A stretch of DNA of 64,000 bases from Pocillopora verrucosa (taxonomy: Eukaryota; Cnidaria; Anthozoa; Scleractinia; Pocilloporidae). The notes under the pieces are model-generated. The model was not told the origin of the DNA, ran no database searches, and saw only the letters and a list, made by a program, of their open reading frames with translations. The stretch covers positions 8,455,126-8,519,125 of the forward strand of contig NC_089313.1 in assembly GCF_036669915.1 (NCBI RefSeq). The letters run 5' to 3'. Every line of letters starts with the position of its first letter. The first letter of the stretch is position 1. This document shows positions 42,811 to 64,000 of this stretch, one piece after another. Made by a program: the position numbers and the translations under genes.

Positions 42811-43863
42811 ATGACCAATTTCAGCGTGTCTGCGATGGAGGCATCAAGAAACTCAGATAAACAGGAATTGTACTTCGTAGTCATCACTTGTACACTGATC
42901 GCAATACTAATTATATTGACGCTCCTCGGAAACACTTTAGTGATGGTTGCGTTTTACCTCTGTAAAGAACTGCGTACAATTACAAACTATTTCCTTGTGT
43001 CGCTGTCTTTGGCTGATTTGCTGACAGCTTTACTAGCAATGCCAATCTTTTTGGTTTCTCGAGTTACATCGGATGGTACTATGTTCCCTGGGGGAGCCGT
43101 ATTCTACGATGTTTGGCGATCAATAGATATCCTTTGTGGCACGGCATCAATATGGAACCTGTGCTTGGTTAGTTTAGACAGATTTCTTGCAGTCGCATCC
43201 CCGCTTAAACACTTAGTGATACTCACGCCAACTCGAGCTAAGGGAGTTATTGTACTTGTTTGGGCAACCTCTCTCGGTCTCTCTGGAATTCTCCACGTAA
43301 ACTGGAACTACAAAGGAGTGTTTATCACCATTATCAGCTTTTTCCTACCACTTATAATAATCATTTTTTCCTACGCCAAGATTTACCAGGTCACCACAAG
43401 AACTTGCGTCTTACGGCGTAGTGGGGGTATGCAACTTAAAAGAGATATTCGCTCGGCTAAACAAATGGTTCTGGTTATCGGAATGTTTATTCTATGTTGG
43501 GTCGGGTTTTTTGTCTTGACACTTATCCTTTCCACGAAACGATCCACTTCTTCTTCGATAAATCCTGGCGTCTTGGACTTTGTTAAGTCTCTAACCTACC
43601 TGAACTCATGTATCAATCCTCTTTTATTTATTATGGTCAGTAGAACTTTTAAGAAAGCTATTCTCGATATTCTTCGTTGTAGGAGACCACGTGTAACGCA
43701 GGAAAGATGTAAGTTATTTGGAAGAAGACAAAAACGTTTTGGGTCATCTTTAGTTTCGTCGTTTTCAAGACGGTCGTCTGCTAGTTACAGACAAAATTCA
43801 GACACTGCAGGGCCATGTTGTCGAAAGGTTGTTACGTACGTTGAGAAAGAAACATGTGTTTAG
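42811..43863 (+). CDS. Class A (rhodopsin-like) GPCR, amine-receptor-like, single exon, 350 residues
   Basis: A plasma-membrane receptor predicted to couple to G proteins. Hydrophobic segments: TM1 20-49 (GNTLV, N41), TM2 57-82 (SLADL, D69), TM3 101-125 (D106 then DRF 123-125 in place of DRY), TM4 143-163, TM5 170-194 (P180), TM6 217-241 and TM7 255-277 (NSCINPLLF in place of NPxxY). WRSIDILCGTASIW around D106 resembles aminergic TM3, where this Asp binds the ligand amine. Odd points: no cysteine at the top of TM3 (Tyr99) and almost no second outer loop, so the usual disulfide is missing. TM6 reads CWVG instead of CWxP. The C-tail (293-350) is rich in Arg and Ser with several Cys. The ligand is unknown. 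A second Met at residue 9 is a possible alternative start. Confidence 0.9.
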   Translation: MTNFSVSAMEASRNSDKQELYFVVITCTLIAILIILTLLGNTLVMVAFYLCKELRTITNYFLVSLSLADLLTALLAMPIFLVSRVTSDGTMFPGGAVFYDVWRSIDILCGTASIWNLCLVSLDRFLAVASPLKHLVILTPTRAKGVIVLVWATSLGLSGILHVNWNYKGVFITIISFFLPLIIIIFSYAKIYQVTTRTCVLRRSGGMQLKRDIRSAKQMVLVIGMFILCWVGFFVLTLILSTKRSTSSSINPGVLDFVKSLTYLNSCINPLLFIMVSRTFKKAILDILRCRRPRVTQERCKLFGRRQKRFGSSLVSSFSRRSSASYRQNSDTAGPCCRKVVTYVEKETCV

Positions 43864-43918: not shown

Positions 43919-45640
43919 ATTGAATGGATTTCTCACTCTGGTCTCGTGTTTTAAAAGAACAACTGGTGTTGTTGCGAGTATCTCAGTTTTTAAATTTATT
44001 GACGCTATTGTTCTATGAGGTCGAGACTTCATAAAGCTTATCGAAGCTTAAAACAATTTTGTCACTTTTCGTGTGGTAATTTTTATGAAGAATAAAGCAA
44101 ATCACGTATTTTCTTTTTTGTGGTCATGAATCCGTCACGGAATATCAGAAAACAGAGGCCCATAAATGGTAAACTTTGGCAAGCTTGGTAGAAAATTTTT
44201 ACCATTTGAGAAGAGAGACAAAGCGAAAAATACAACAATGAAGATTAACTTTGGTGCATGTTTTACAGAATATTCTACTGTCTGACAGAATATTCATTTC
44301 CATATTGAGAGCATTATGAAGTGTTTGACGACTAAGAAACCAAAAGGTAATAAATGAAAACTGATTGTTTACTTCTAAAGTTACTTGCCTGTGACATCAT
44401 TACAATAAAAGCGCGAAATTGTGTTAATTTTGTCAATATGCCACTCTAATAAAGGGAATCTTGGAAACCAAAAACCATTGGGTGGCAGCTCATCCATATT
44501 CATTCTTATCTTTTCCATTATACCTTTTTCTTCTTTCACTTATTCAGTTTTACATCAACATTTCAACTGCTTATATTTCGATATTATTTGAATGCCAGTG
44601 TATAGAGCACCTGTGAAGGTCGACTTTCAGTGTAATTTTAAAATGTATTTTCTTTTCATGCCGTTGAACAATTGTGCGGAAAGGATTTGCGGCAATCTAA
44701 GGCAATTTCACCGTGAATAAGCCTATCAGCTATTACCTCCTCAGCAGATGAGATTTAAGTTATCAACGAAGCGAGAAAACTTGGGCTTAATTTCCACTCA
44801 TGAATTACGCGCGCATTTCGTCTGAAAATTCAAACACGGACTTGAGATTTTCCTTTCATTTAAAAAAAAGAATATCAATAAAGGTGATAATAATGAATTT
44901 AAAGAAATTTTTTTGTCTTCAAATGTTTACAAGTTGATTTTTTTAAAGATGTGAATCAAATGAATTTGAGATGTTTTGGAACCTTTTGTTTTGCTGAAAA
45001 TTCAATATTTGGCTATGGTGTATTGATATATAAACTGTCAGAATATCGATTATATCTGACACACTGAGGTCAAACAATGATCTGACGAACATTTTGGCAT
45101 GATAAACAAAGTTGTTCAACGGTAATCTACCGACTTGATTGCTTTCTCCGCAGTTAGTAAGGTAATTGCATGTATCGTCAACTTTCTTACGCCGATAAGG
45201 TTTATCAAATAACCAGTCGGCCACGTTGCCATGGGAGACCAAGGCAAGTCATTTTCGGTAATCCAGCAGTAGGAAAAATACATAAATGAACATCTTGGGA
45301 ATTATTGCTGCCCAGAATAAACGTGCTACTCCGGAAATTTTTCCAATGGGACATTTAATCTTTATTTGGTATAGAAAAGCTCCATTGAACCTGAGTTCCT
45401 TGGATTAGCTGCTAAAAATATTTATTCTGCATAAAACGACAAAAGCAATCAGCCACCTTGGTTTCTATAAATTTGAACATTTTGTATTCAATAGGAATTG
45501 TCACTCATACATACAGAGGTTTTAATCATAGAGGTCTCTATAAAATTTGATATCCTTGTTTAATTGGTATGCCATTACTAGTATCATTATGACAGTCCTT
45601 CAAACATCAGTTTCGCTTTATCCGTGTTTCCTATCTCGTC
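43919..45640. other. Intergenic DNA, nothing recognised
   Basis: AT-rich sequence with no supported gene. The minus-strand open frame at 44943-45242 lacks recognisable motifs. Confidence 0.45.
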
Positions 45641-45643
45641 GTG

Positions 45644-46640
45644 TTAGATGGCCCATGTAGTCTTGATCAAGACCTTCCATTCGTGATTCTCTCCTAATTC
45701 TCTCTCGGCAACTTGTTCTGCCTTTGTGAATAAAGTCATTGCCTCATCAAAGATTCCTCTCTTCTTGTGACAAGCTGTGTAACTCTTCAAAGTCAGGATG
45801 TTATCTTTGCTTCCACCTTCGGCAAGACCGTCGAACATTTCTATGGCTGCATCACAATACTAAGGGGAAATTTTTAAATCGTCTTCTTTTTTTGTTTCTC
45901 CACCAAGAAAGAAACGGAGGTCTACAATGGCCTTCAGGGGTTCGGCGGTCATAAAATGTTTACCAAGGCACCATTCAAAGAGTTCTAACGCCTTTATTAG
46001 CATTTTAGTAGCTGTATCACGCTGCTTGCCGCGTTTGGCAATGATTTCTGAAAGAAGAAGAGTTGCTGCTATTTCTGGATGACGATCGCCCTGGCTTGCA
46101 CTACTAACAGCTAGAGCTGATTGAGTCTCTTGCTCAATTATTTGGTTTTCTTTGGGATCTTTTTAATCGGAAAGTAAGCGTGCATAACTGTTATGAAAGT
46201 AAACTTTTGATAACGGATTTTCTTCAAACTTTGCAGCATTCAGGAGGTAAATTTCTTCCATTCGCTGCATACTTTCTCTGTACTTCTTTTGGTCTTTTGT
46301 CCAAGAAGACATAAAAATTCTACAACACGTATTGGCTGAACATTTGAGTCAAATTTTTCCAGCAAACTTTTCAAGGAACTGAGCGTAATTCTTTGGGTAA
46401 AGACAGAGTTTGAGAGGGTTCCATAATTTTCTTTTCCTCCCTTCCTTCGGTGTAAATGCAAACAAAATGCTCAAAATTGTTCCTTTCCTTGATGAATGTA
46501 AAAAGGGATTCTTTGCAACTGCCTCTTCTCCAGTACTGATACGCCAGTACGCACTGATTCTTCTGCATGTCCATACAGACATCACATTAGATCTAGATGA
46601 CATAATTGACATCTATGTAAGAGAGTACCCAAGAAGAATG
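45644..46640 (-). pseudogene. Broken copy of the HEPN-NB-ARC-TPR gene (C-terminal TPR part)
   Basis: Read on the minus strand, pieces in several frames align in order to residues 575-897 of the intact protein at 51371. Examples: CKESLFTFIKERNNFEHF (46.5 kb), LLEKFDSNVQPIRVVEFLCL (46.35 kb), NPLSKVYFHNSYARLLSD (46.2 kb), AATLLLSEIIAKRGKQ (46.05 kb), GKHFMTAEPLKA (45.95 kb) and GIFDEAMTLFTKAEQVAERE (45.7 kb). Frameshifts separate the segments near 46.3-46.4 kb, and stops occur at 46165-46163 and 45862-45860. The HEPN and NB-ARC parts are missing. The copy is much more diverged than the palindrome pair, so it is an older member of the same cluster. Confidence 0.85.
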
Positions 46641-47039
46641 AAGCTATGAAATCCTATGGAAGGTGATTAGTCTGGGTAGGATAGCAGTAGGGTAGCAGCC
46701 TTGCGTTTCCTCTAGATTACACCATGATTTTTAATAGCGTAACAAATGGATAAAGAAGCCTAGAATTGGGACTGTTCGAGTGAAAGTCGTGGCGATCAAC
46801 AAGCCTAAGCTAATGCGTTAACACTAGAAGAATGAACTGAGTAAACATTAAAAGAATGAACACTTTCTTTCTTAAATTTCGTTTTCTCTTAGAACTGTAT
46901 CGCGTCATTAACAGTGATCATCAAGCTCAAGGAAAAGGAACTTTTTATAATTGTCCTGTCTTGTAGTTTGGCTATTCTCGGCTTGCACGCATCACGTTCC
47001 ACTTGTGCTGGTGTCTAAAGTGAAAATCAGGTTGGAGCA

Positions 47040-47400
47040 TTCGGCAAACTTTCTACCTTAACTATCACAGCAAACATAGTCCGAGCTGCAAAATCGTGTG
47101 TTTGGTGGGCAGCTGCCGAGCCTCAAGCTCAAGGTCTGGAATCGCCACTGGAACTTATGAGAGAATTCCTTGATCGTCACCCAGAGCTCAGCCGTGATCG
47201 TACTAGACCGTGCTTGCGTAGATGATGTTGACAGATAGAGACGCCTGACATGGTTTTTGTTTAGAAGCTGAAATACGACTGAAGTTTTAGCAGGGTCATT
47301 TAGCATTATCAACTGAGTTGATAACGTAAACTGGCCACCGTAAATAATTTCTAAGCTGACATTTCGAGCGTTAACTCTTCGAAAGAGCGAATGGAGAATT
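47040..47400 (-). repeat. Dispersed repeat, copy 3 of 3, plus attached sequence
   Basis: 47311-47390, reverse complemented, gives the AAACT..TTTACGGTGGCC-AGTTTACGTTATCAACTC-type core seen at 21446 and 28655. The adjoining 47040-47310 is open on the minus strand (84 codons with five Cys near the end) and may belong to the same retroelement. No conserved motif was recognised. Confidence 0.4.
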
Positions 47401-47416
47401 CGAGGTTTAGTAATAT

Positions 47417-47600
47417 TTAGATTTAGCCAAGCCTAAAAGCGGAGCTTGCATTTTTTTTCCTTCCACGTCTCAAGGGCACAACACCTTGCCTCGGCCAGGA
47501 CTAGAACCCGGGTCGTCCGACTCGGAACCCAGTGCACTGACCACTGGACTACTGGACAAAGCCGTGGCATCGGCGTGCCCGCGGTACAGTTAACCACGCA
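47417..47600 (-). mobile_element. tRNA-derived SINE
   Basis: The minus strand has an A-box-like TGGTCAGTGCACTGG and a B box GGGTTCTAGTCCTGG, about 30 nt apart, followed by GCCGAGGCAAGG. The tail end carries AGCTCCGCTTTTAGGCTTGG; the same unit on the plus strand (TTTAGCTAAGCCTAAAAGCG) occurs alone at 29327-29352. The head side abuts the octamer array. Confidence 0.7.
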
Positions 47601-47622
47601 TGTTAAAAGTAGTACCTCGTGC

Positions 47623-47742
47623 GGTCGTACGGTCGTACGGTCGTACGGTCGCACGGTCACACGGTCGTACGGTCGTACGGTCGTACGGTCGTACGGTCGT
47701 ACGGTCGTACGGTCGTACGGTCGTACGGTCGTACGGTCGTAC
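47623..47742. repeat. Tandem array of 15 octamers GGTCGTAC
   Basis: Fifteen units fill exactly 120 bp; units 4 and 5 are the variants GGTCGCAC and GGTCACAC, the rest are perfect. The unit contains the self-complementary CGTACG across its junction. Because 8 is not a multiple of 3, the array is open in several frames and gives spurious eight-residue repeat proteins; it should not be taken as coding. Confidence 0.97.
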
Positions 47743-50146
47743 ATCCAAATTTTTTCGGCTTGATGGGTTACTACTATTTTTGTATAATATTGTATTATGG
47801 AGCTACGCTCTGCGAGTTCCGCTATAAACTGTTTACGTTTATGCAAATAACGAGGTGATCCACAAACATATTAATGCAGTAAAGGCTATGATAGTCGAAT
47901 AGATAAGATTTCAATGATGTGTGACTTGTGAAACGTCCGATATAGTCGCTTCTATTTGGGTAAAATATCAGTTCATTTCGATACTTATTTCAGATCTCAT
48001 AACTTTTAAAACTATGGTAAATATCAAATGCTGCTATATTCAGTACGTTTCACATTCATTCTTAATCACGTCGGTTTAAGTTGGATTGAGTTTTAAGACA
48101 TCATGTAACTACTTCTATTCACAAAATATTTCTTCTATATGCGAAAGGGCTTCGTTCAGCATTCCTAGGATGAACGGCCTAACGAATTAGCTGTTTTGCA
48201 TGAAATACTTGGGCCATATCATGAGGATATTTGTCAGCGTGACTGCTTTAAATCTAAGTTACTGACTGTTAAAAACAATGCGAACGTTAATCTTGCGTAT
48301 AATTGGGTGGAGTAATGAGCCAGAACTGTATGCCTACCAAAAGCCCTTTACGATTCCCGTAGAGCAGATTATCCGCCTTCAATTACGTTTTCCTAGAAAA
48401 GCGGGAGCGACGATGAAGGATTCTTTGAAACTTTAGCAGTTTATTCCAATGTAAATGGGCGGGTTGATATTTGGATAAAAAAGGTTTTAAGATTGAAGAC
48501 GATTGAAATTGTTCACACCTTACTTAGCAGCGGTAAGACATTTCAGTTACGAACAGTACGAGCGTTAGCTTATAAGGAATGATATTGCAAGCAGAACTTA
48601 ATTCAAAAATTTTCCGGGATAGAATGTCTAATGCTTCATAACCTGAATATATTCAGTTATAACGGCAATGAAGTCGCGAATCAATTGATTGAGGCCATAA
48701 ACTTACTATGAAATTTGACAAGTGCATGCAAATTTGACTCGAAAATAAAAAATAATCCCGGGCTAGTAATCATATTGTCAAGAAAGTAGGAATCTCAAAG
48801 CGTTCCTTTGAGGCTTGCATATATTAAAAACTTAGAGTTTTCTCTCACGCAAGACATCGATTTATTGTGAATAAAGTCGCTATAGAATATGATCCATCCG
48901 TGTGTAGCAGTTCAAACGAAACTGCCAAAACAGTAGCACGAAGACTGGAGTGAACAGATTCAAACTCAACGCCCAGCACAGCAATACATTTATACATTAA
49001 CGGTTCCTGAAATTAATTTCCGTCTGATATATATCCTATACTATATATCCTTAACTTTCATGACTGTTTTCCTTAACCTTTGAAGTATTTTTCCTGGTTT
49101 CTCAGTTAACGTTTGATGTTGGTTTGCACTTAAAACCTTGCGTCACATCATGCTTGACGTTAACCCGTGGGAGGTTGGAGGCAACCTGATGCGTCATTAC
49201 TGCATTACTGTGCAGTTTTAAAGAATTTGTCGTCATAATAATTTTTTCCTACTCCATCAAGTTTCCGAGAAAAAACGCAGGAATTTATTGTGAAACACGA
49301 TCTCTCAGAGCCTTTTTTGTCTCGGCAAATACTGCACTTGATAACTGAATATTTTACTTCAGTCATTATTTTCGAATCCTGTGTTACTAAAAAAGACGAA
49401 CAACTAAATTTACATCAAAGACAAGAAGTAATTGTCTAAAGATTAGACATTAAAATTCATCTTAAATCTCCAACCGTCCATAACAGCTCATTGTTTCGGG
49501 AGACATCATTATGCAAAGTCGCTGTAGTATTGGCTTTCTCGGAAGACAGAAAGCAACTCTGTAGAAACTCCTAGAATTTAGGAGCACCGGTCTCGAGCGT
49601 CTGTGAAAAAGATAGCAATTTAGAGTGCTTCCCTAAAGACGTGATCTGGTTTGCCCAGAACAACTGCAAAGCTGAAGTCATCCTTCTATTCCATCTTTGA
49701 GACGAATTGTCTTCGAATACTTCGGAAGCAAGATATTCTGACGAAAGGAAACTTGAAAATCGTTTCTGCGTTAATTGTTAATGCACTATGGATATTTTCT
49801 CCCCTCTGGGAGGTTTTTTTAAACTTTTTGTATTTCAATAAATGTCGTGTACATGAAAATTGAGTATTCAGGATGACTGCGGCCAACCAGCTTAAAGGTG
49901 TCATGAATAGGTATTGTAATCACCACTAATAGACAGTGTCTAGTTTTTTCGGAGTAATGGTAGACTTAAGCGGGATTTTCCCTCAATCATCAAGATTGAT
50001 GCCAATTACAGGAGTAAAATCACTCAAACGAAACCAAAAATACAAAACCATCGTGCAATACATGTTTTGTTTGCGTCATTTAATTTTGACAGCTATATCC
50101 AAACTTGATCATGAGTAGTTTATTTGCCTAAGTTATTTAAGATCGA
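47743..50146. other. Intergenic DNA between the repeat cluster and the palindrome
   Basis: No gene supported. Open frames at 49651-49904 overlap on opposite strands and lack motifs. No mirror copy of this stretch is visible in the window, because its counterpart would lie beyond 64000. Confidence 0.45.
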
Positions 50147-50517
50147 TATGAGAATCTTACTATCTTCTTAACTTGAAACATTTCACGGAACCTTCTTGGA
50201 TTCCTAGAATCCTTACGGTCAATAAATTCCGGAAAACATGAATATTCCCCTAGATTTCCCAAAATAATATGGCGTCATGTCATGGCTCACATCAACAATT
50301 TTTCCGTTTCTATGCAAGCGCCTCTTCTAGCACGAGATTCCGACCAAATTGTGACGTGGAGCTAAATATGTCATAAAGGGATAATATCACATACCAGTGT
50401 ACTCAGAAGTCATTCCCAGAAAGTACCGATACATATTATTTCGACATCCACTATTTTAGCTTTATTTCGTCATTCAAGTTTCCGAGAAAATCCGCTCTGA
50501 TTTTTTTGTCAACATTG

Positions 50518-51070
50518 CAAAAATCTGTCTTATCTTATTTACGTAATTGAAAAATTACAACCGTTAATTAAATATATGACTTTATCATTATAATGACGAA
50601 TTCATCGAAAGAATAAGCAAGTGAAAAGGGACAGTAACTGAATTGCCTACCTGCTAACATCAAACAAAACATAGGTCCTTAATCAGCAGTTATGTATGGT
50701 TTGACTCTAAGTTGACAGGACAGGCTCATGCAAATTTTACACTGTAGACACGTGCTATGATCTTTCTCGAAAACCGTGGAAAATTATTCATCATCGTGTA
50801 TTTCTCGATGATTTATTCCTCAATAGTACAAAAATCTGTCTTATCTTTTTAACATAATTGAGAAATTACAACTGTTAATTAAAGATATGGCTTTATCATT
50901 AAAATGACCAATTTTAACGAAAGAATAAACAAGTGAAAAGGGACAGTAACTAAACTGCACCAGCTAACATCAAGCAAATCATAATTCCTTAATCATCAAA
51001 TATGCATGGATTGACAATCAAGTTGACAGGAAAGGCTCTTGCAAATTTAACACTGATCTTTCTCGGAAAT
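50518..51070 (+). repeat. Tandem ~311-bp duplication in the NLR upstream region
   Basis: CAAAAATCTGTCTTATCTT starts at 50518 and again at 50829. Each is followed by ATTACAACxGTTAATTAAA, then GAATAAxCAAGTGAAAAGGG, GCTAACATCAA and GATCTTTCTCG in the same order. The units are about 80-90 percent alike. Both units are also present in the mirror arm (about 63070-63680). The duplication therefore predates the palindrome. Confidence 0.85.
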
Positions 51071-51370
51071 AGGGGAAATTTATTCTTCATCGAGTATTTC
51101 CTAGAACTTGGTGGGAAATTTCCCTGTTGACTGGTTATAAAACTCGTGTCAATTGAAGATCGCAATTCGTGGTTATCTGAAGACAAGCTAACGTCCCTAT
51201 CCTTCTCAAAAGGAATTTGTTTTTAAAGAGCTTTATTGCGATCGTGAGTTCAACAAACGCACGCACGCATCGGTGAGGTAAGCTTATTCCGTTCCATTTT
51301 TCAAACGAAATTTCCACAAATACTTTTCCACCAAGACTTTTCCATCTCTCGAGTTAAAACAGAAAATATA

Positions 51371-54232
51371 ATGGCTGGCGCAGCCTCTTCTACTGTTTCT
51401 TCTGGATCTTCTGTGCTAAATGTATCAGAGGAGAAAACGAATGGCACGAAGCTATTACGGCTGCTGGTTGACAGAGGAAGACACGTCCTACGCAATTTAT
51501 TGCACTCTGTCTACCCAATGGATAAATTACAAGTCGTATTAAACAATAATAAGAAAAAGCTTCAACGGCTAAGGTCCGAAGATGTAATATTTGAAAACCA
51601 GTGGGAAATGTTATTTCCTGCCTCAGGCGATCCACCGGACTCGAAAACGTTCGACATTACACTTTTACATCTATTGCTTCGTGAAATTTGCCATCTTACG
51701 GCGCCTTCGACGGGATGGCACAACATGCCTGCAGAAGATGATGATAGTCTCGAAGCAAACATAACTCGCATCAAATATTTCCGAAATGAGCTTTTTCACA
51801 GCTTCTCTACCGGAATTCCAAACGCTGAATTCGAGTACAAGTGGAAGGAGATTGCATCGTTGTTAGAGGCAATTGATATTTATGTTCTACGAAAGAGGCA
51901 CGAAGAGGAAATGGAGGCGCTGAAGAATGATCCCACTGGTTACGATACAAAGCTACGTTTGGAGGAACTAGCAAAAGAATGGAACAAAATACAGGAACAA
52001 GAAAGGATTCACTCGTCAAGTTTTAGCCCTCGCAGCTGTCTACCGGACAGAATACCTGAAAAACGTGTATTTGGCCGCAACCAAGAAATAGAGCGTGTCA
52101 AGAAAATGGCCGTGGGTGGAGACGTCGCTGTCGTCCTGGTTACTGGTGGACCTGGATTTGGAAAGACGACTGTGGCCGAAAGAGTGGCTCATGAATTAGC
52201 AAAATCAGAGAAGGAAGCAACTGTGTTGTTTTGTAGTTTACTAACGAAGAAAAATTTCAAAGAAGTGGCCGAAGAAATAATTAACTCGTGTGGTACAATC
52301 AGCAGGCAAGTACCAGAGAATCCGGGACAGTGGCTAAGAGACTGGAGCAAACGAGTTCGAAACCAGGTCACGTTTGTTCTTGACAATGCAGATAGCGTCC
52401 TCGAGTCGAGCGATCGAGAATCATTTATAAGCATCTTATCTGACGTAAGAAGGTTATCGAGGCAAAAGGTAACATTTGTCGTAACTGCAAGGAAAACATT
52501 TGAGAATCCTGACTTGCAGTCTTGCGAAGTCAGGTTGGGCCCTTTGTCCGCCGAACAGGCAAGAAATCTCCTTATTTCTAGGGTGCAAGTCTATGAAGAT
52601 GCCCCGCAGAACCTTTGCAGGGCAGAATACATCGCCAGAAATCTATGTGGCTGCGTTCCTATGGCACTTTACATTGTTGGATCCTTGCTATCAGACTATT
52701 CTGAAGAAACACTCATAGAGAGCCTCGAAAAGGAACAATTAGCGGTTTTAGAGGACGACCAAGGATATGTTGAAAAGGCCGTAAAGACTTCCTTTGACCT
52801 TTTGACGAAACTCGAACAAGAAGCTTTCATTCTCCTATCTTTGTTCCAAGGTTCATTTGATCTAGATGCAGTCCAAGCTGTGACGCAGGCGGAATGTTCG
52901 ATCTCGAGCTCCGGCGCTTTACCTATCACCATCCTGCGCTCCTTAAAAAACAGATCTCTTGTGGAGAAGCCCTATTCGCGCAGATATCAGATGCATCCGC
53001 TCATTCAGTCATACGCAAAGAAGATGGGTCGAGATAAGTATGACAAACTTTTGGCAATGGGCGAAAAACTGGCTTGTGTACACTTCATGTCGCGCCTCGC
53101 GAAGAATGCTAATATTTACTGGAGTAAGGACACGTGCAAGGATTCCCTTGCATCATTTAAAGAAGACAAGTACAATTTCGAACATTTTCTTCAAATTTAC
53201 GCTCGAGGTAGGGAAGAACAAGATACAAAGATCGTGAACGGCTGTGAACTCCTTTTGGACAGTTTCCCTCAGAAATGCATGTATTTGGAAAGATGTCTTC
53301 ATCCAAGGTTCTACACTGAGCTCCTTGAAAGATTATTGAAAACTTTTGACTCTGGAATCCAACCAGTGTGTGTAGTAGATCTTTTGTGTCTTCTTGGTCA
53401 TGAATACAGGAAAAAAGGAGAACAAGAGAAGTACAAAGAGGTCATGGATGAAGCGCAACAAATTCGTTTGGTGAGTGATGCTGCATTTGCGATGAAACCG
53501 TTATCAGAAGTCTATTTTCACAACAGCAATGCTCGCTTCCTTTCTGATAAAAAAGATGTTAGAGTGAACAGACAGACTGAAAAGGAGGCTGCACTAGCTG
53601 TGAAAATATCCAGTGAACTGCTTCATGATCACCCGGAAAGAGCAGCTACTCTCCTCCTTTCAGGAAATATTACAAAGCGCAGTAAGCAGTTCGATGCAGC
53701 CAAAGAAATGCTCAAAGAAGCGTCGGAACTCTTTCAAAAGAGCCTTGGGCAACATTTTATGACTGCTGAAACCCTGAAGGCCACTGGAGACCTTTACTTC
53801 TTTCTTGATGGAAAGTCCGAAGTCGACTTTGAAATCTGCCTCAAGTATTATAAAGCTGCTTTGGAAATGTTCGACGACCTAGGAGTGGGTGAAAGCAAAG
53901 AAAGCATCTTGACGATAAAGAATTTTGGAATGTGTCACATGAAAAGTGGGAACTTTGACGAGGCAATGAATCTACTCTCGAAAGCAGAGCAAATTGCCGA
54001 ACGAGAATTAGATGAGGATCACACCTGGAAAGTCTTTATAAAGACTTCACTGGCCCTCTTGCATGAGAAGATGAATGAAGTTGAGCGGGCGATAGACGTA
54101 ATGCACGAGGGACTGGTGCTGGGCAAGAAATTGAATCAAACCATATACAGGATGGGAGAAAGATATTTGATTGGAGAATTTCTAGACCGGTATCCAGGGA
54201 AGTTCCCCGAGACTGAATTCCCAAGTAAGTAA
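51371..54232 (+). CDS. NLR-like immune receptor: HEPN - NB-ARC - TPR, 953 residues (left copy)
   Basis: A cytosolic sensor-type NTPase of the kind expanded in cnidarians. Residues 20-180 form a HEPN domain of the DZIP3 type (FDITLLHLLLREIC, IKYFRNELFHSF), with R138-x4-H143 fitting the HEPN RNase motif. A charged, probably coiled segment spans 172-212. The NB-ARC ATPase runs from about 230 to 420: Walker A GGPGFGKTT (259-267), Walker B FVLDNAD (335-341), TFVVTAR (368-374, sensor 1-like), CGCVPMAL (426-433), and MHP (541-543) where plant and animal NB-ARC proteins have MHD. TPR-like helices fill about 560-930, with FDEAMNLLSKAEQIAEREL the clearest. The frame is one uninterrupted exon starting at the first ATG. 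It ends at TAA inside CCAAGTAAGTAA, which is also a good splice donor, so the true C-terminus may differ. Confidence 0.9.
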   Translation: MAGAASSTVSSGSSVLNVSEEKTNGTKLLRLLVDRGRHVLRNLLHSVYPMDKLQVVLNNNKKKLQRLRSEDVIFENQWEMLFPASGDPPDSKTFDITLLHLLLREICHLTAPSTGWHNMPAEDDDSLEANITRIKYFRNELFHSFSTGIPNAEFEYKWKEIASLLEAIDIYVLRKRHEEEMEALKNDPTGYDTKLRLEELAKEWNKIQEQERIHSSSFSPRSCLPDRIPEKRVFGRNQEIERVKKMAVGGDVAVVLVTGGPGFGKTTVAERVAHELAKSEKEATVLFCSLLTKKNFKEVAEEIINSCGTISRQVPENPGQWLRDWSKRVRNQVTFVLDNADSVLESSDRESFISILSDVRRLSRQKVTFVVTARKTFENPDLQSCEVRLGPLSAEQARNLLISRVQVYEDAPQNLCRAEYIARNLCGCVPMALYIVGSLLSDYSEETLIESLEKEQLAVLEDDQGYVEKAVKTSFDLLTKLEQEAFILLSLFQGSFDLDAVQAVTQAECSISSSGALPITILRSLKNRSLVEKPYSRRYQMHPLIQSYAKKMGRDKYDKLLAMGEKLACVHFMSRLAKNANIYWSKDTCKDSLASFKEDKYNFEHFLQIYARGREEQDTKIVNGCELLLDSFPQKCMYLERCLHPRFYTELLERLLKTFDSGIQPVCVVDLLCLLGHEYRKKGEQEKYKEVMDEAQQIRLVSDAAFAMKPLSEVYFHNSNARFLSDKKDVRVNRQTEKEAALAVKISSELLHDHPERAATLLLSGNITKRSKQFDAAKEMLKEASELFQKSLGQHFMTAETLKATGDLYFFLDGKSEVDFEICLKYYKAALEMFDDLGVGESKESILTIKNFGMCHMKSGNFDEAMNLLSKAEQIAERELDEDHTWKVFIKTSLALLHEKMNEVERAIDVMHEGLVLGKKLNQTIYRMGERYLIGEFLDRYPGKFPETEFPSK

Positions 54233-54382
54233 ATATTGTGTTTAATACAGTGCTCGATGTACTTGTTAGTTAGCTGTCCCATATGAAGCAGCATTTACAG
54301 CTTCTGCCTTACCATGGAAGGATAGTTTCAAAATTATCCCCACTGTTTGATATGAGGGGGGAAGGATCTTGGCCTTACACTC

Positions 54383-54388
54383 AATAAA
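54383..54388 (+). promoter_or_regulatory. Candidate poly(A) signal, left NLR gene
   Basis: AATAAA 151 nt after the unspliced stop codon; conserved in the mirror copy at 59801-59806. Confidence 0.4.
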
Positions 54389-54750
54389 ATTGCAGAGGTA
54401 GCTTAAAAATACTCATAATTGAATTGGGAACGTATTATAGTTTATATTTTAAAGCTTCCTCTCTGGGTAAGAACTTAAACATCCATAGTAAAAGCCACCT
54501 GATCTGAATATCAACATTCTTTATGAATTAACGTGAAAAGAAACTTCTTTTAATCGCGCGCTTCATTTTCCTAAAAAATCCCTCTTACCTCTTTACGAGA
54601 TTGCAAGCTATCAATCAGAAGTTATGATTAAGTTTAGAAGCTTCTGAAGACAGCTTTAAGTAAAGTATAAGTTAGAGAGAAGTGTTACCCTTGTTAAATT
54701 GCACTGTGATGATTCACGGCATAATTTATACTGTGCTGTTAATCTTTCAG

Positions 54751-54864
54751 GGAGTGTTGTCAGTCGAACAAGCCATCGAGTCCAACAGCCCCACTGGAAG
54801 AGGAAAGCTGGCTTTGGAAGAGGATGGAATCATTGAGAAAACTAAGGAAAAGGGTTGTTACTGA
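54751..54864 (+). CDS. Possible alternative 3'-terminal exon of the left NLR gene
   Basis: A strong acceptor (AATCTTTCAG) is followed by sequence open for 37 codons in one frame (SVEQAIES, KLALEEDG) and for about 45 codons in the frame that a donor at AGTAA/GTAAAT would impose. The upstream ORF ends in overlapping donor-like CCAAGTAAGTAAAT. The exon is conserved in the mirror arm with one coding substitution. The reading frame joined in vivo is uncertain, and the piece could also be untranslated. Confidence 0.35.
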   Translation, partial: GVLSVEQAIESNSPTGRGKLALEEDGIIEKTKEKGCY

Positions 54865-56377
54865 TGGAGAGAAATTTAAATGATAGCTATGAAAAACTCG
54901 GAAACTACCAAAGTGAATCTTAGAGATGCGCAAACTATGATGATAAGGAACCAATCTTTGAAACGACCGCTGCAAATCGACTTTAAAATAATAGTTTTAT
55001 ATCTTACAAGGGAACATAACGATACAACAAGAGATAATAGGGATCTCTTAAATACAACCGATTCACTTCCGTGTAGTTTTTTTTTCTCAAATGTGAAAAT
55101 ATAACCAATTAAATCGTTCTGAAGCGAGAGGCAGATTACCGACGATTAGCAAATAACCAAATTCTGTCAGCGTGCCTCGCGCTAATTATTTTAACAAATA
55201 GATTCCATTGTGTACAAACCGAAAAGTGACAGAGCGTGTCGCCCATGTTTTTACCACATTTAGACATTAATTGTGGACTCTTACTTTACAGACTCACGAC
55301 AGCATGATGAAAAAAGGTGTCAATATTTTTATTCACTCTATTCAGAATTATTTTTTCACTTTGTGGAGGGGTAGTTTTAAAAGTGATTTTAGGAAATGTA
55401 ACTCTCTGATCAGTACATAGTGTAGACGTAGGCGAAAAAAAAAATGTCTTTGAGCACAATCAGTTACTCGCTATAGAAATTTGTTTCACTTCGTTCAAAT
55501 GGAAATGTGGCGAAGATTATAAGCATCAACGTGTTATCACTTTCACAAGCAATCTGTCAAGCTCACCAGGATGTTTAAATGTTTTTTAGGAAGGTATTAA
55601 GCGATTTTTACATTCTGTCCGCTTGATTATTATTGAGCTGTTAAATTTCGATTGATTTGCTGAAGATACATTTGAATAAAGTCTAATAATGAAAATGGAT
55701 ATCTTTACAAATCGCTGGTAGCGATGATAAGTAAATTAGTGAATAAAGATTCTATCAACGAATACATTCTGTGTTTGATGAGTAGGCGTAGTTTAATGAA
55801 GGAATGGGATATTGGTGCAAACTGTTACCGTAAACGCCTAGGAATGTTAAAAAAATAATGAAATAATAAAGAACAGATTTGCAGAAATACTTCTGTAAGA
55901 CTATAAAGCAAACCAAAAACACCATATTTATTGTAGACAAGTCCGAACTTTATCGTGGGAAAGTTGAAGACTGAAATGAAACCCTTAATGCTTCAATTTG
56001 TACGATGATTATTTTGATCGCGAGCCTTGGTTATTTTTTCTTATTCCAATGATAACCATGCATGAAATAGGAAGGGCACACATAATGCAGTGCCTTAAAT
56101 TCAATGGGTGAATTTCTTGGAAACACGATATCCTGGATAACTCTGTGTAATCATTTGTTAAATTTAGAACATTTCGTGGAAATTGCTTGGCTTCCAAGAA
56201 TCTTCAAGATCATTATATTCTAGACAACATGTATATCCGCTTTTAAAATCCAGAGTGAATTGGTTTCACATCATGGGTCACATCTAGCATCTTTTCAGTT
56301 CCGTAAAGACGGTTCTTGAAGTGTTTTTCAAATTTCATAAAAGCGTTTAAACTTTGACGAAGAAAAAAACCGTTGTT

Positions 56378-56616
56378 GAATACAACATAGATCGATTAAC
56401 CTTCTCAGAATTTCCCAGAACTTTTGTTCCTTCATCAACAAACAGTCTTGCCAGCCTTGTACCATTCGTCTTTTCTTCAGATACACCCTCTATTGAGGGT
56501 CCAGAAAGGCTCGCAGACGTTGTTGAGGCTGTTGTACTGGCTGCCATGACTCACAATCGAAGCCTTTTTATATTGAAATTTCCATTTGAGAAGGTTAATC
56601 GATCTATGTTGTATTC
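56378..56616. repeat. 29-bp perfect inverted repeat at the palindrome breakpoint
   Basis: 56378-56406 is the exact reverse complement of 56588-56616 (contains GATCGATTAACCTTCTC). The pair encloses the start of the truncated third NLR gene. The left copy touches the inner end of the left arm (56374). Confidence 0.92.
56407..56547 (-). pseudogene. Truncated third NLR gene, first ~46 codons
   Basis: The frame from ATG 56547-56545 contains VSEEKTNGTRLARLFVDEGT, which aligns with VSEEKTNGTKLLRLLVDRGR at residues 18-37 of the intact copies, and continues TKVLGNS before homology is lost. The open frame then runs into the 29-bp inverted repeat and the left arm and ends at 56347. It is a diverged paralog (about 60 percent over the aligned stretch), not another copy of the arm gene. 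Confidence 0.85.
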
Positions 56617-58436
56617 AGACAACCAGGAGTCGCAATTATTAATCGATACGAAGGAAAAGCTCAAAATTCTCGGAAAGATGCAATGATAACTGAATCTGTA
56701 ACTTCCAAGAAGGCTCATTTCCATTTACGCACAATGTGATGTCATAAAACTTCAACTGTCATGCGCTGTTGTAAAGCAAAATTTGCGTGGTATGTTTGTA
56801 CCTGATCACTTTCCATTAAACTATTAAAATTAGAAGTGTTTGGGAACTATTAAAATTAGAAATGTTCTAACTAAGTGTTTGGGAGTTGTTTAAATCATCT
56901 TGAAATCCTCGTGCGAGTCTTGTGAACCTTGGTTTGTCATGTGCAGTAAGACCACATATTCATTTTTACCTTTTGATTTGTCCTCGATCATTGTAATAGG
57001 GCTTAATTCTCGCACGATAATCGTAATCTTTAGTCGTGTTTGGGTTTGTCCTTAACCTTGCTTAGAGTCCTCGAGAGGAAGTTTAATTTAGGTTTCACTG
57101 AGTTCTCGAATATTGGTTTTTTTAAGTACTTTGTTGTTTATTTCGAATGTCTCGTGAAATTGTTTCAGTAAAGATTCAAAAATATATTTATTCCTCCAAG
57201 TCAGCTGTCCCGTAAGCCCGAACATGCTTACCGTTAGGATATTGTAGGAGCGTGCACTTAGGGCTGAATTGATAGAAGAGTGACAGAGTCTCAGAGGATG
57301 AATTAAAAGTGCTTGATCAGACTTCTGGTCATGGTTCCGTTGGCGCGAGTTGCTCAAGGTAGTTAAGTTCAGCAGTCCAATAAGATGAATATAGTGACTT
57401 CCAATTGACTTGCATTTTCTTCTTTAAGCAATATTTGCTGCTTCAAGAACAAAACAATTCAAGTCTGTGGTTAAAATTCTGATTTTATTATTCTTATTAT
57501 TCCGGATTTTCCAAGAAACTTGGAGGAAATGTAGATAGATAAATTATGGACTTCTTTCTCGGAATCATTGCTAAGTACACTTGATATGCGATATAATTCA
57601 TTTATTTTAGCATGCGAGGGCAAGTCCCACGTCACAGTTGGATCGGAATCCCGAGTTTTTACCAGAGATGTGCTCAGAGCTAAAATCTCGAGCTGAACGG
57701 TTTTTTTCTTCGTCAAAGTTTAAACGCTTTTATGAAATTTGAAAAACACTTCAAGAACCGTCTTTACGGAACTGAAAAGATGCTAGATGTGACCCATGAT
57801 GTGAAACCAATTCACTCTGGATTTTAAAAGCGGATATACATGTTGTCTAGAATATAATGATCTTGAAGATTCTTGGAAGCCAAGCAATTTCCACGAAAAG
57901 GTTCTAAATTTAACAAATGATTACACAGAGTTATCCAGGATATCGTGTTTCCAAGAAATTCACCCATTGAATTTAAGGCACTGCATTATGTGTGCCCTTT
58001 CTATTTCATGCATGGTTATCATTGGAATAAGAAAAAATAACCAAGGCTCGCGATCAAAATAATCATCGTACAAATTGAAGCATTAAGGGTTTCATTTCAG
58101 TCTTCAACTTTCCCACGATAAAGTTCGGACTTGTCTACAACAAATATGGTGTTTTTGGTTTTGCTTTATAGTCTTACAGGAGTATTTCTGCAAATCTGTT
58201 CTTTATTATTTCATTATTTTTTTAACATTCCTAGGCGTTTACGGTAACAGTTTGCACCAATATCCCATTCCTTCATTAAACTACGCCTACTCATCAAACA
58301 CAGAATGTATTCGTTGATAGAATCTTTATTCACTAATTTAATTATCGTCGCTACCAGCGATTTGTAAAGATATCCATTTTCATTATTAGACTTTATTCAA
58401 ATGTATCTTCAGCAAATCAATCGAAATTTAACAGCT

Positions 58437-58545
58437 CTAAGCAAAAGGGAAAGACTATATCATTCTTTTCAGTATATTTTGGTACGAAAAAAAAATAATT
58501 TGCAAAATTTCGAGAAGAGGAGGACATACCCAGACTGTTAAAATA
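58437..58545. other. ~100-bp insertion present only in the right arm
   Basis: Left arm has AGCTCAATAATAATCAAGCG (reverse complement, near 55620-55640). Right arm has AGCTCT, about 100 unrelated bases containing a poly-A run and GAAGAGGAGGACATACC, then AAAATAATCAAGCG. This accounts for most of the offset between outer and inner pairing. A further ~16-bp difference lies near 59520-59545. Confidence 0.75.
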
Positions 58546-59308
58546 ATCAAGCGGACAGAATGTAAAAATCGCTTAATACCTTCCTAAAAAACATTTAAAC
58601 ATCCTGGTGAGTTTGACAGATTGCTCATGAAAGTGATAACACGTTGATGCTTATAATCTTCGCCACATTTCCATTTGAACGAAGTGAAACAAATTTCTAT
58701 AGCGAGTAACTGATTGTGCTCAAAGACATTTTTTTTTTCGCCTACGTCTACACTATGTACTGATCAGAGAGTTACATTTCCTAAAATCACTTTTAAAACT
58801 ACCCCTCCACAAAGTGAAAAAATAATTCTGAATAGAGTGAATAAAAATATTGACACCTTTTTTCATCATGCTGTCGTGAGTCTGTAAAGTAAGAGTCCAC
58901 AATTAATGTCTAAATGTGGTAAAAACATGGGCGACACGCTCTGTCACTTTTCGGTTTGTACACAATGGAATCTATTTGTTAAAATAATTAGCGCGAGGCA
59001 CGCTGACAGAATTTGGTTATTTGCCAATCGTCGGTAATCTGCCTCTCGCTTCAGAACGATTTAATTGGTTATATTTTCACATTTGAGAAAAAAAAACTAC
59101 ACGGAAGTGAATTGGTTGTATTTAAGAGATCCCTATTATCTCTTGTTGTATCGTTATGTTCCCTTGCAAAATATAAAACTATTATTTTAAAGTCGATTTG
59201 CAGCGGTCGTTTCAAAGATTGGTTCCTTATCATCATAGTTTGCGCATCTCTAAGATTCACTTTGGTAGTTTTCGAGTTTTTCATAGCTATCATTTAAATT
59301 TCTCTCCA

Positions 59309-59422
59309 TCAGTAACAACCCTTTTCCTTAGTTTTCTCAATGATTCCATCCTCTTCCAAAGCCAGCTTTCCTCTTCCAGTGGGGTTGTTGGACTCGATGG
59401 CTTGTTCGACTGACAACACTCC
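59309..59422 (-). CDS. Possible alternative 3'-terminal exon of the right NLR gene
   Basis: Mirror of 54751-54864, with acceptor and open frames intact and a single coding difference (an AGC to AAC codon in the longest-open frame). Its use depends on the same donor choice at the end of the main exon. Confidence 0.35.
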   Translation of the reverse strand, partial: GVLSVEQAIESNNPTGRGKLALEEDGIIEKTKEKGCY

Positions 59423-59800
59423 CTGAAAGATTAACAGCACAGTATAAATTATGCCGTGAATCATCACAGTGCAATTTAACAAGGGTAACACTTCTCTCTA
59501 ACTTATACTTTACTTAAGGCTCGACATGCCTAAATGTTTCTTCAGAAGCTTCTAAACTTAATCATAATTTCTGATTGATAGCTTGCAATCTCGTAAAGAG
59601 GTAAGAGGGATTTTTTAGGAAAATGAAGCGCGCGATTAAAAGAAGTTTCTTTTCACGTTAATTCATAAAGAATGTTGATATTCAGATCAGGTGGCTTTTA
59701 CTATGGATGTTTAAGTTCTTACCCAGAGAGGAAGCTTTAAAATATAAACTATAATACGTTCCCAATTCAATTATGAGTGCTTTTAAGCTACCTCTGCAAT

Positions 59801-59806
59801 TTTATT
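59801..59806 (-). promoter_or_regulatory. Candidate poly(A) signal, right NLR gene
   Basis: AATAAA on the minus strand, mirror of 54383-54388. Confidence 0.4.
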
Positions 59807-59956
59807 GAGTGTAAGGCCAAGATCCTTCCCTCCTCATATCAAACAGTGGGGATAATTTTGAAACTATCCTTCCATGGTAAGGCAGAAGCTGTAAATGCTG
59901 CTTCATATGGGACAGCTAATTAACAAGAACATCGAGCACTGTATTAAACACAATAT

Positions 59957-62818
59957 TTACTTACTTGGGAATTCAGTCTCGGGGAACTTCCCTGGATACC
60001 GGTCTAGAAATTCTCCAATCAAATATCTTTCTCCCATCCTGTATATGGTTAGATTCAATTTCTTGCCCAGCACCAGTCCCTCGTGCATTACGTCTATCGC
60101 CCGCTCAACTTCATTTATCTTCTCATGCAAGAGGGCCAGTGAAGTCTTTATAAAGACTTTCCAGGTGTGATCCTCTTCTAATTCTCGTTCGGCAATTTGC
60201 TCTGCTTTCGAGAGTAGATTCATTGCCTCGTCAAAGTTCCCTCTTTTCATGTGACACATTCCAAAATTCTTTATCGTCAAGATGCTTTCTTTGCTTTCAC
60301 CCACTCCTAGGTCGTCGAACATTTCCAAAGCAGCTTTATAATACTTAAGGCAGATTTCAAAGTCGACTTCGGACTTTCCATCAAGAAAGAAGTAAAGGTC
60401 TCCAGTGGCCTTCAGGGTTTCAGCAGTCATAAAATGTTGCCCAAGGCTCTTTTGAAAGAGTTCCGACGCTTCCTCGAGCATTTCTTTGGCTGCATCGAAC
60501 TGCTTACTGCGCTTTGTAATATTTCCTGAAAGGAGGAGAGTAGCTGCTCTTTCCGGGTGATCATGAAGCAGTTCACTGGATATTTTCACAGCCAGTGCAG
60601 CCTCCTTTTCAGTCTGTCTGTTCACTCTAACATCTTTTTTATCAGAAAGGAAGCGAGCATTGCTGTTGTGAAAATAGACTTCTGATAACGGTTTCATCGC
60701 AAATGCAGCATCACTCACCAAACGAATTTGTTGCGCTTCATCCATGACCTCTTTGTACTTCTCTTGTTCTCCTTTTTTCCTGTATTCATGACCAAGAAGA
60801 CACAAAAGATCTACTACACACACTGGTTGGATTCCAGAGTCAAAAGTTTTCAATAATCTTTCAAGGAGCTCAGTGTAGAACCTTGGATGAAGACATCTTT
60901 CCAAATACATGCATTTCTGAGGGAAACTGTCCAAAAGGAGTTCACAGCCGTTCACGATCTTTGTATCTTGTTCTTCCCTACCTCGAGCGTAAATTTGAAG
61001 AAAATGTTCGAAATTGTACTTGTCTTCTTTAAATGATGCAAGGGAATCCTTGCATGTGTCCTTACTCCAGTAAATATTAGCATTCTTCGCGAGGCGCGAC
61101 ATGAAGTGTACACAAGCCAGTTTTTCGCCCATTGCCAAAAGTTTGTCATACTTATCTCGACCCATCTTCTTTGCGTATGACTGAATGAGCGGATGCATCT
61201 GATATCTGCGCGAATAGGGCTTCTCCACAAGAGATCTGTTTTTTAAGGAGCGCAGGATGGTGATAGGTAAAGCGCCGGAGCTCGAGATCGAACATTCCGC
61301 CTGCGTCACAGCTTGGACTGCATCTAGATCAAATGAACCTTGGAACAAAGATAGGAGAATGAAAGCTTCTTGTTCGAGTTTCGTCAAAAGGTCAAAGGAA
61401 GTCTTTACGGCCTTTTCAACATATCCTTGGTCGTCCTCTAAAACCGCTAATTGTTCCTTTTCGAGGCTCTCTATGAGTGTTTCTTCAGAATAGTCTGATA
61501 GCAAGGATCCAACAATGTAAAGTGCCATAGGAACGCAGCCACATAGATTTCTGGCGATGTATTCTGCCCTGCAAAGGTTCTGCGGGGCATCTTCATAGAC
61601 TTGCACCCTAGAAATAAGGAGATTTCTTGCCTGTTCGGCGGACAAAGGGCCCAACCTGACTTCGCAAGACTGCAAGTCAGGATTCTCAAATGTTTTCCTT
61701 GCAGTTACGACAAATGTTACCTTTTGCCTCGATAACCTTCTTACGTCAGATAAGATGCTTATAAATGATTCTCGATCGCTCGACTCGAGGACGCTATCTG
61801 CATTGTCAAGAACAAACGTGACCTGGTTTCGAACTCGTTTGCTCCAGTCTCTTAGCCACTGTCCCGGATTCTCTGGTACTTGCCTGCTGATTGTACCACA
61901 CGAGTTAATTATTTCTTCGGCCACTTCTTTGAAATTTTTCTTCGTTAGTAAACTACAAAACAACACAGTTGCTTCCTTCTCTGATTTTGCTAATTCATGA
62001 GCCACTCTTTCGGCCACAGTCGTCTTTCCAAATCCAGGTCCACCAGTAACCAGGACGACAGCGACGTCTCCACCCACGGCCATTTTCTTGACACGCTCTA
62101 TTTCTTGGTTGCGGCCAAATACACGTTTTTCAGGTATTCTGTCCGGTAGACAGCTGCGAGGGCTAAAACTTGACGAGTGAATCCTTTCTTTTTCCTGTAT
62201 TTTGTTCCATTCTTTTGCTAGTTCCTCCAAACGTAGCTTTGTATCGTAACCAGTGGGATCATTCTTCAGCGCCTCCATTTCCTCTTCGTGCCTCTTTCGT
62301 AGAACATAAATATCAATTGCCTCTAACAACGATGCAATCTCCTTCCACTTGTACTCGAATTCAGCGTTTGGAATTCCGGTAGAGAAGCTGTGAAAAAGCT
62401 CATTTCGGAAATATTTGATGCGAGTTATGTTTGCTTCGAGACTATCATCATCTTCTGCAGGCATGTTGTGCCATCCCGTCGAAGGCGCCGTAAGATGACA
62501 AATTTCACGAAGCAATAGATGTAAAAGTGTAATGTCGAACGTATTCGAGTCCGGTGGATCGCCTGAGGCAGGAAATAACATTTCCCACTGGTTTTCAAAT
62601 ATTACATCTTCGGACCTTAGCCGTTGAAGCTTTTTCGTATTATTGTTTAATACGACTTGTAATTTATCCATTGGGTAGACAGAGTGCAATAAATTGCGTA
62701 GGACGTGTCTTCCTCTGTCAACCAGCAGCCGTAATAGCTTCGTGCCATTCGTTTTCTCCTCTGATACATTTAGCACAGAAGATCCAGAAGAAACAGGCGA
62801 AGAGGCTGCGCCAGCCAT
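59957..62818 (-). CDS. NLR-like immune receptor: HEPN - NB-ARC - TPR, 953 residues (right copy)
   Basis: Same length, start, stop and domain order as the left copy. Nine residue differences are seen: T8P, K61T, K92N, Q210K, K782E, S859R, D881E, M901I and Q923L (left to right copy), about 99.1 percent identity. None falls in the HEPN R-x4-H, Walker A, Walker B or MHP motifs; five of nine lie in the C-terminal TPR region after 780. Both copies are fully open, so both may be functional. The gene is transcribed toward the palindrome centre, with at least 5 kb between the two 3' ends. Confidence 0.9.
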   Translation of the reverse strand: MAGAASSPVSSGSSVLNVSEEKTNGTKLLRLLVDRGRHVLRNLLHSVYPMDKLQVVLNNNTKKLQRLRSEDVIFENQWEMLFPASGDPPDSNTFDITLLHLLLREICHLTAPSTGWHNMPAEDDDSLEANITRIKYFRNELFHSFSTGIPNAEFEYKWKEIASLLEAIDIYVLRKRHEEEMEALKNDPTGYDTKLRLEELAKEWNKIQEKERIHSSSFSPRSCLPDRIPEKRVFGRNQEIERVKKMAVGGDVAVVLVTGGPGFGKTTVAERVAHELAKSEKEATVLFCSLLTKKNFKEVAEEIINSCGTISRQVPENPGQWLRDWSKRVRNQVTFVLDNADSVLESSDRESFISILSDVRRLSRQKVTFVVTARKTFENPDLQSCEVRLGPLSAEQARNLLISRVQVYEDAPQNLCRAEYIARNLCGCVPMALYIVGSLLSDYSEETLIESLEKEQLAVLEDDQGYVEKAVKTSFDLLTKLEQEAFILLSLFQGSFDLDAVQAVTQAECSISSSGALPITILRSLKNRSLVEKPYSRRYQMHPLIQSYAKKMGRDKYDKLLAMGEKLACVHFMSRLAKNANIYWSKDTCKDSLASFKEDKYNFEHFLQIYARGREEQDTKIVNGCELLLDSFPQKCMYLERCLHPRFYTELLERLLKTFDSGIQPVCVVDLLCLLGHEYRKKGEQEKYKEVMDEAQQIRLVSDAAFAMKPLSEVYFHNSNARFLSDKKDVRVNRQTEKEAALAVKISSELLHDHPERAATLLLSGNITKRSKQFDAAKEMLEEASELFQKSLGQHFMTAETLKATGDLYFFLDGKSEVDFEICLKYYKAALEMFDDLGVGESKESILTIKNFGMCHMKRGNFDEAMNLLSKAEQIAERELEEDHTWKVFIKTSLALLHEKINEVERAIDVMHEGLVLGKKLNLTIYRMGERYLIGEFLDRYPGKFPETEFPSK

Positions 62819-62872
62819 TATCTTTTCTGTTTTAACTCGAGAGATGAAAAAGTCTTGGTGGAAAAGTATTTG

Positions 62873-64000
62873 TGGAAATTTCGTTTGAAAAATGGAACGG
62901 AATAAGCTTACCTCACCGATGCGTGCGTGCGTTTGTTGAACTCACGATCGCAATAAAGCTCTTTAAAAACAAATTCCTTTTGAGAAGGATAGGGACGTTA
63001 GCTTGTCTTCAGATAACCACGAATTGCGATCTTCAATTGACACGAGTTTTATAACCAGTCAACAGGGAAATTTCCCACCAAGTTCTAGGAAATACTCGAT
63101 GAAGAATAAATTTCCCCTATTTCCGAGAAAGATCAGTGTTAAATTTGCAAGAGCCTTTCCTGTCAACTTGATTGTCAATCCATGCATATTTGCTGATTAA
63201 GGAATTATGATTTGCTTGATGTTAGCTGGTGCAGTTTAGTTACTGTCCCTTTTCACTTGTTTATTCTTTCGTTAAAATTGGTCATTTTAATGATAAAGCC
63301 ATATCTTTAATTAACAGTTGTAATTTCTCAATTATGTTAAAAAGATAAGACAGATTTTTGGACTATTGAGGAATAAATCATCGAGAAATACACGATGATG
63401 AATAATTTCCACGGTTTTCGAGAAAGATCATAGCACGTGTCTACAGTGTAAAATTTGCATGAGCCTGTCCTGTCAACTTAGAGTCAAACCATACATAACT
63501 GCTGATTAAGGACCTATGTTTTGTTTGATGTTAGCTGGTAGGCAATTTAGTTACTTTCCCTTTTCACTTGCTTATTCTTTCGATGAATTCGTCATTATAA
63601 TGATAAAGTCATATATTTAATTAACGGTTGTAATTTTTCAATTACGTAAATAAGATAAGACAGATTTTTGCAATGTTGACAAAAAAATCAGAGCGAATTT
63701 TCTCGGAAACTTAAATAACGAATAAAGCTAAAATAGTGGATGTCGAAATAATATGTATCGGTACTTTCTGGGAATTACTTCTGAGTACACTGGTATGTGA
63801 TATTATCCATTTACGACATATTTAGGCGCTTGCATAGAAACGGAAAAATTGTTGATGTGAGCCATGACATGACGCCATATTATTTTGGGAAATCTAGGGG
63901 AATATTCATGTTTTCCGGAATTTATTGACCGTAAGGATTCTAGGAATCCAAGAAGTTTCCGTGAAATGTTTCAAGTTAAGAAGATAGTAAGATTCTCATA
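62873..64000 (-). promoter_or_regulatory. Upstream region of the right NLR gene
   Basis: Mirror of the left upstream region, including both ~311-bp tandem units. It lacks about 40 bp that the left arm has at 50323-50362, just after GCAAGCGCC. No core promoter motif was recognised. Confidence 0.6.

Follow-up and report, generated by a model that had tools for sequence, protein, structure and literature searches.

The systems closest to the locus which we describe here are all of known kinds: fold-back inverted duplications, palindromes which carry genes, and the expansion of NLR genes in corals. Fold-back priming at breaks is a route to inverted duplications which has been studied in yeast, as described in PMC10622511. 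PMC10766186 reports that palindromic junctions are unstable and that longer spacers are gained by secondary rearrangement. In corals, gene conversion is held to be very rare in the account given by Noel et al. 2023 (PMC10236652). Among the titles listed by our literature searches, none deals with an NLR palindrome of a coral. The palindrome found in Pocillopora verrucosa is an unusually legible and well-preserved case of a known rearrangement.

The window is the whole stretch of 64,000 nt which has been analysed. It corresponds to C2:8455126-8519125, C2 being a contig of 20,182,140 bp in a genome of 353 Mb in 52 contigs. Inside the window the inverted arms appear as eight collinear pieces with 97–100% identity, and a chance origin is ruled out. 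The limits of the arms come from a BLAST self-comparison of a 134-kb stretch, formed by the window and fetched flanks. The full arms have 9.8 kb each (C2:8501672-8511499 and C2:8512821-8522642), separated by a spacer of 1,321 bp. In window coordinates, the left arm is found at 46547-56374 on the plus strand, with unbroken homology from 46550. The right arm, on the minus strand, is found at 57696-64000 and goes on to the equivalent of position 67517 (C2:8522642), so the window truncates the palindrome, whose right arm runs 3.5 kb beyond the window end. An earlier note had described near-identical inverted arms of at least 6.2 kb. They are present, and longer once the flanks are included; the start which it gave, 50147, is merely the mirror image of the window end at 64000. 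The outer flanks of the two arms show no mutual match in the 134-kb self-comparison.

Exact inverted matches of at least 20 bases, separated by 2 kb or less, form 12 rows in the 134 kb. Two of these rows are the arms, one is a 31-bp match in the centre, five belong to a single 908-bp fold-back element and four are found elsewhere. The fold-back element (19306-20213) is self-complementary, with 87.7% identity, and has minisatellites with a 14-base period at both ends. A different kind of repeat is found within the left arm, a TCGTACGG array with 15.8 units at 47617-47742. The right arm has a 96-column gap about opposite to it, which suggests that the array is probably shorter there.

The alignment of the arms contains 133 substitutions in 9,688 columns (1.37%) and 13 gap events, with sizes from 1 to 101 bp. 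A simple mirrored read is ruled out by these differences. The substitutions are distributed as follows: 93 of 4,684 positions (2.0%) in the outer non-coding part, 15 of 2,862 in the coding region and 25 of 2,142 in the inner part. The event had been called very young. A recent palindrome with twin intact NLR genes agrees with our results, "very young" being true only in a relative sense, given the divergence of the outer non-coding part.

Each arm contains one intact open reading frame of 953 residues, arranged tail to tail: gene L (51371-54232, plus strand) and gene R (59957-62818, minus strand). Both have the same domain architecture, HEPN_DZIP3 at residues 51-189, NB-ARC at about 237-476, and TPR. 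PF18738, PF00931 and PF13424 are above the curated Pfam cut-off in both proteins, in agreement with the twin HEPN-NB-ARC-TPR genes of the earlier note. Its figure of nine differing residues is also what we count, all of them outside residues 211-781. The proteins keep an intact GGPGFGKTT at 259, which we take to be the P-loop motif, and an intact HEPN Rx4-6H motif, RNELFH at 138, which has the Rx4H form. The latter is described in PMC3710099 as the mark of the predicted RNase site of HEPN domains. Judging from the domains, which is how we infer protein function here, L and R are presumably cytosolic STAND immune switches, with an N-terminal HEPN effector (a predicted RNase) and a TPR sensor. 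An AATAAA/ATTAAA hexamer is found 151 bases 3' of the stop in both genes. If it is used, transcripts are predicted to end far short of the centre, which would argue against a long hairpin RNA. An outside protein, P0003, is 98% identical and has 16 residues unlike both arms. At the nine residues which differ between L and R it agrees with L at five and with R at four, so each copy has changed independently.

A whole-genome search for DNA matches of the gene gives 21: L, R, 16 in an NLR cluster at C2:14.759-14.887 Mb, 6.2 Mb from the palindrome, a fragment adjoining the left arm, and two on contig C12. Some of the 16 cluster matches are two pieces of one gene. The closest match outside the palindrome has only 88% identity, thus L and R are mutual nearest relatives among the 21 matches. 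Gene R, the left-arm fragment and the whole set of 16 in the cluster share the minus strand; L alone is on the plus strand. The cluster contains a tandem repeat at C2:14763662-14848986, with about 52–55 kb between copies which are 94–98.5% identical. One of its gene types has an intact copy at 14788233 and copies interrupted by stops at 14804576 and 14841113.

Stylophora pistillata, Pocillopora, Orbicella, Desmophyllum and Oculina all have NLR proteins among the named relatives. The unrooted tree which FastTree gives for 21 NLR proteins has P0037 of Pocillopora verrucosa (a 93% match) and P0035 of P. meandrina adjoining two cluster genes. HEPN_DZIP3 domains are abundant in the genome, at least 150 being above the Pfam cut-off (150 scored of 267 candidates). 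They form arrays on C6, C5, C8 and C10, and many of the domains listed are on C6. The window also contains a reading frame of 350 residues for a Rhodopsin-family GPCR (42811-43863), which is 100% identical to P0123, from an ENA contig. Its nearest named relative, among 84 mostly nameless matches, is from Acropora palmata (65%). A tRNA scan and an Rfam scan at the gathering threshold gave no hits in the window. A tblastn search of plasmids gave only remote bacterial matches, below 60% identity, in 19 records.

The left arm is flanked by two pieces of NLR sequence, both on the minus strand and both matching the same NLR subclass of the cluster. The C-terminal piece (45591-46536, C2:8500716-8501661) has five in-frame stops and is 81.7% identical to C2:14774051-14775052. 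The N-terminal piece lies within the centre, at about 56408-56652 with its 5' region included (C2:8511532-8511775), and is 71.3% identical to 14776644-14776881; its coding remnant occupies 56408-56547. The middle 1.6 kb, which correspond to 14775053-14776643 in the paralog, are missing, and in the 134 kb they have only 68% matches, to L and R. Both pieces would once have formed one gene, which we call X. The best cluster copies differ between the pieces (14774051 for the C-terminal one; 14768222 and 14820167, with 74.3%, for the N-terminal one), so a single gene X is what we infer from them. The cluster shows a similar arrangement: the X-like gene at 14773942-14776785 is followed after about 11 kb by a gene at 14788227 which is R-like, as is its 3' flank, and this makes X beside R a plausible old order. 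At the left outer junction, the X homology ends in CCAGTAC and is followed by a 13-nt filler (46537-46549) which repeats CCAGTA, and then by the arm; the filler plus the next base repeats the last seven bases of X (CCAGTAC). Polymerase-theta end joining typically leaves templated filler of this sort.

These flanks bear on the alternative raised in the earlier note, an assembly artefact in which two haplotypes or mirrored reads are joined head to head. The arm divergence is compatible with such a join, as 1–2% could fall within the range of coral heterozygosity. Apart from L and R, none of the 21 matches is nearly identical to the gene, which leaves no second haplotype to compare. Nevertheless, if haplotypes had been joined, the outer flanks should be homologous and the structure symmetric, and neither is seen: the flanks do not match each other, and the left arm splits NLR pieces which share one orientation. 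A symmetric join is rejected on these grounds. The sequence is also gap-free, with no N in the 134 kb. Given the asymmetric origin of the structure, we regard an artefact of this kind as highly unlikely.

The best reading of the sequence is that the left arm would be an inverted copy of the right arm, placed into gene X. The junction between the centre and the right arm is spanned by six cluster matches, and the left inner junction by none. Four of the six have been aligned, and all of them run straight through. The left arm appears to be derived because cluster matches cross the right inner junction only and remains of X are found at both sides of the left arm; the right arm would then be the ancestral copy. 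Some observations speak against an ancestral right inner junction. The sequence there has the look of a dispersed repeat. One tandem duplication contains two of the four places which have been aligned, and at three positions of the cluster (14859070, 14876169 and 14877141) the inner end of the arm is matched from about 20 bp inside, without the spacer. As for the right outer junction, its ancestral status depends solely on an open frame which crosses it and has a weak hAT-dimerisation match (E 0.057, below the Pfam cut-off).

This hAT-like match at the right outer edge is also what would favour a transposable element with giant terminal inverted repeats. In that case, the left outer junction should not consist of filler and a deletion of X with no target-site duplication, and copies of the arms as a unit might be expected elsewhere. 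None is found in the 134 kb and the 160 kb which have been compared, the next copy of the gene having 88% identity. The transposon is rejected for the lack of a target-site duplication at this junction. A direct tandem duplication followed by local inversion would be another way to an inverted pair, and tandem NLR duplications do exist, as the repeat of about 52–55 kb at C2:14.763-14.849 Mb demonstrates. However, an inversion broken in X would leave the halves of X in opposite orientations. The orientations of the pieces agree, and local inversion is rejected as well. Taken together, duplication with inversion or a transposon would be a most improbable origin.

Returning to the proposed copying of the right arm into gene X, the inner end of the left arm may be traced in the centre. 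The centre had been described as unique, with a length of 1.3 kb. The length is correct; uniqueness does not hold, as the centre includes the N-terminal NLR fragment, a 31-bp remnant of the arm and sequence related to the NLR cluster. The remnant (56377-56407) is an exact inverted match to 56587-56617, that is, C2:8511502-8511532 and C2:8511712-8511742. Its order and polarity are those of a copied arm which continued to 8511712, for which reason we take it to be the old innermost end of the left arm. The sequence between both partners (56408-56586) would be the original palindrome loop, with 179 bp. The following 1,078 bp (56618-57695) are found only on the right side and were probably deleted from the left arm; GTT is common to both sides of the putative deletion junction. 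In the simplest account, the original palindrome would have had arms of 10.9 kb (8511712-8522642 on the right side) and the 179-bp loop, and the left counterpart of 8511743-8512820 would have been lost later. A partial, collinear remnant at the left inner junction is a further argument against a join of haplotypes.

The interrupted palindrome was probably produced by the repair of a break in gene X, through fold-back priming, copying, end joining and a later deletion; we hold this account with some confidence. Genes X and R would have been neighbours with the same orientation. After a break in X, the broken end on its N-terminal side would have folded back onto its own strand and primed synthesis about 180 bp away, within the 5' region of X. 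Copying would then have continued outward for about 10.9 kb, through gene R. End joining would have linked the new end to the far side of the break in X, adding the 13-nt filler at the cost of 1.6 kb of the gene. A subsequent deletion of about 1.1 kb in the left arm, beside the centre, would have produced the present 1.3-kb spacer. All the features would thus follow from a single event and a single later deletion. The outcome would be a second intact NLR gene, tail to tail with the first one, and a dead gene X. The geometry, the split pieces of X, the 31-bp collinear match and the cluster matches over the right inner junction are observed; the order of events, the polymerase and the joining pathway are a reconstruction. 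At the presumed annealing site of the fold-back we find only a short imperfect match.

The main rival of this account is the ODIRA model. Replication template switching (ODIRA, FoSTeS/MMBIR) would produce an inverted duplication or triplication, from which the present form would have arisen by a later collapse. Its product is of the same kind, and a short complementary sequence, judged by eye, is found near the loop. The ODIRA model, as presented in PMC10766186, includes secondary rearrangements which lengthen the spacer. The loops given there for ODIRA have 40–80 nt, and the 179-bp loop is longer than that. There is no third copy of the arm within 134 kb, and break repair would directly leave X disrupted, with sequence lost at a single site. 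We therefore consider template switching unlikely as the origin of the palindrome.

Another question is whether the arms exchange sequence. The longest run without substitutions between them has 1,135 bp and covers NB-ARC coding region (51999-53133 on the plus strand, mirrored at 61056-62190). Whole-arm permutations do not reach this length in any of 2000 cases, a null which ignores constraint. Within the coding region it is reached in 41 of 5000 permutations, and in 65 of 5000 when they are weighted by the divergence from three paralogs. Such a tract suggests that the arms have undergone gene conversion. On the other hand, synonymous divergence between L and R over the whole gene (6 of 616 sites) is not significantly below that of all non-coding sequence (P 0.094; 0.040 against the outer part and 0.42 against the inner part), which counts against conversion as the cause of the clean tract. 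The continuing gene conversion proposed in the earlier note has the tract in its favour and the synonymous sites against it.

Exchange among paralogs may also take place elsewhere. The identity between gene L and cluster gene c14788 is uneven, with values from about 92% down to 62% in different parts of the gene. Protein P0006, from an ENA contig which may be chimeric, has an NB-ARC region similar to L and R (residues about 226-375, 97–100% like the palindrome genes) in a c14788-like frame. Both observations suggest such exchange. A more ambitious reading would make the palindrome an active device, in which conversion between the arms might preserve an identical NB-ARC switch and let the receptors diverge at their HEPN and TPR ends, where the nine differing residues lie, and inverted pairs born from breaks might diversify coral NLRs. 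We regard this as doubtful, a speculation with little probability; if true, it would run contrary to the view of gene conversion as very rare in corals.

In summary, this animal immune-gene locus retains the filler at its left outer junction, the loop, and signs that sequence beside the centre was deleted later. It offers a concrete test of how an inverted gene pair arises and survives, and of gene conversion acting on coral NLRs. The yeast fold-back inverted duplications at double-strand breaks described in PMC10622511 are similar in that they start near the break, have a short loop and lose the sequence beyond the break. Unlike those duplications, the coral palindrome is interstitial, with the other end of the break rejoined, and it is apparently inherited, in an NLR locus, whereas those in PMC10622511 are laboratory clones. 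Palindromes of mammalian sex chromosomes, such as P8/VCY as presented in PMC6790999, also have arms of high identity, one gene copy in each arm and a spacer of a few kb, and conversion between arms is possible in both cases. The coral palindrome is not known to lie on a sex chromosome; its arms are about four times shorter and asymmetric in origin, and conversion between them is suggested rather than proven. The coral NB-ARC/TPR NLRs with a DZIP3-like HEPN described in PMC10236652 share the domain architecture and the clustered expansion. The duplications reported there are tandem; the palindrome is instead a pair in inverted orientation, in which one tract may reflect conversion.
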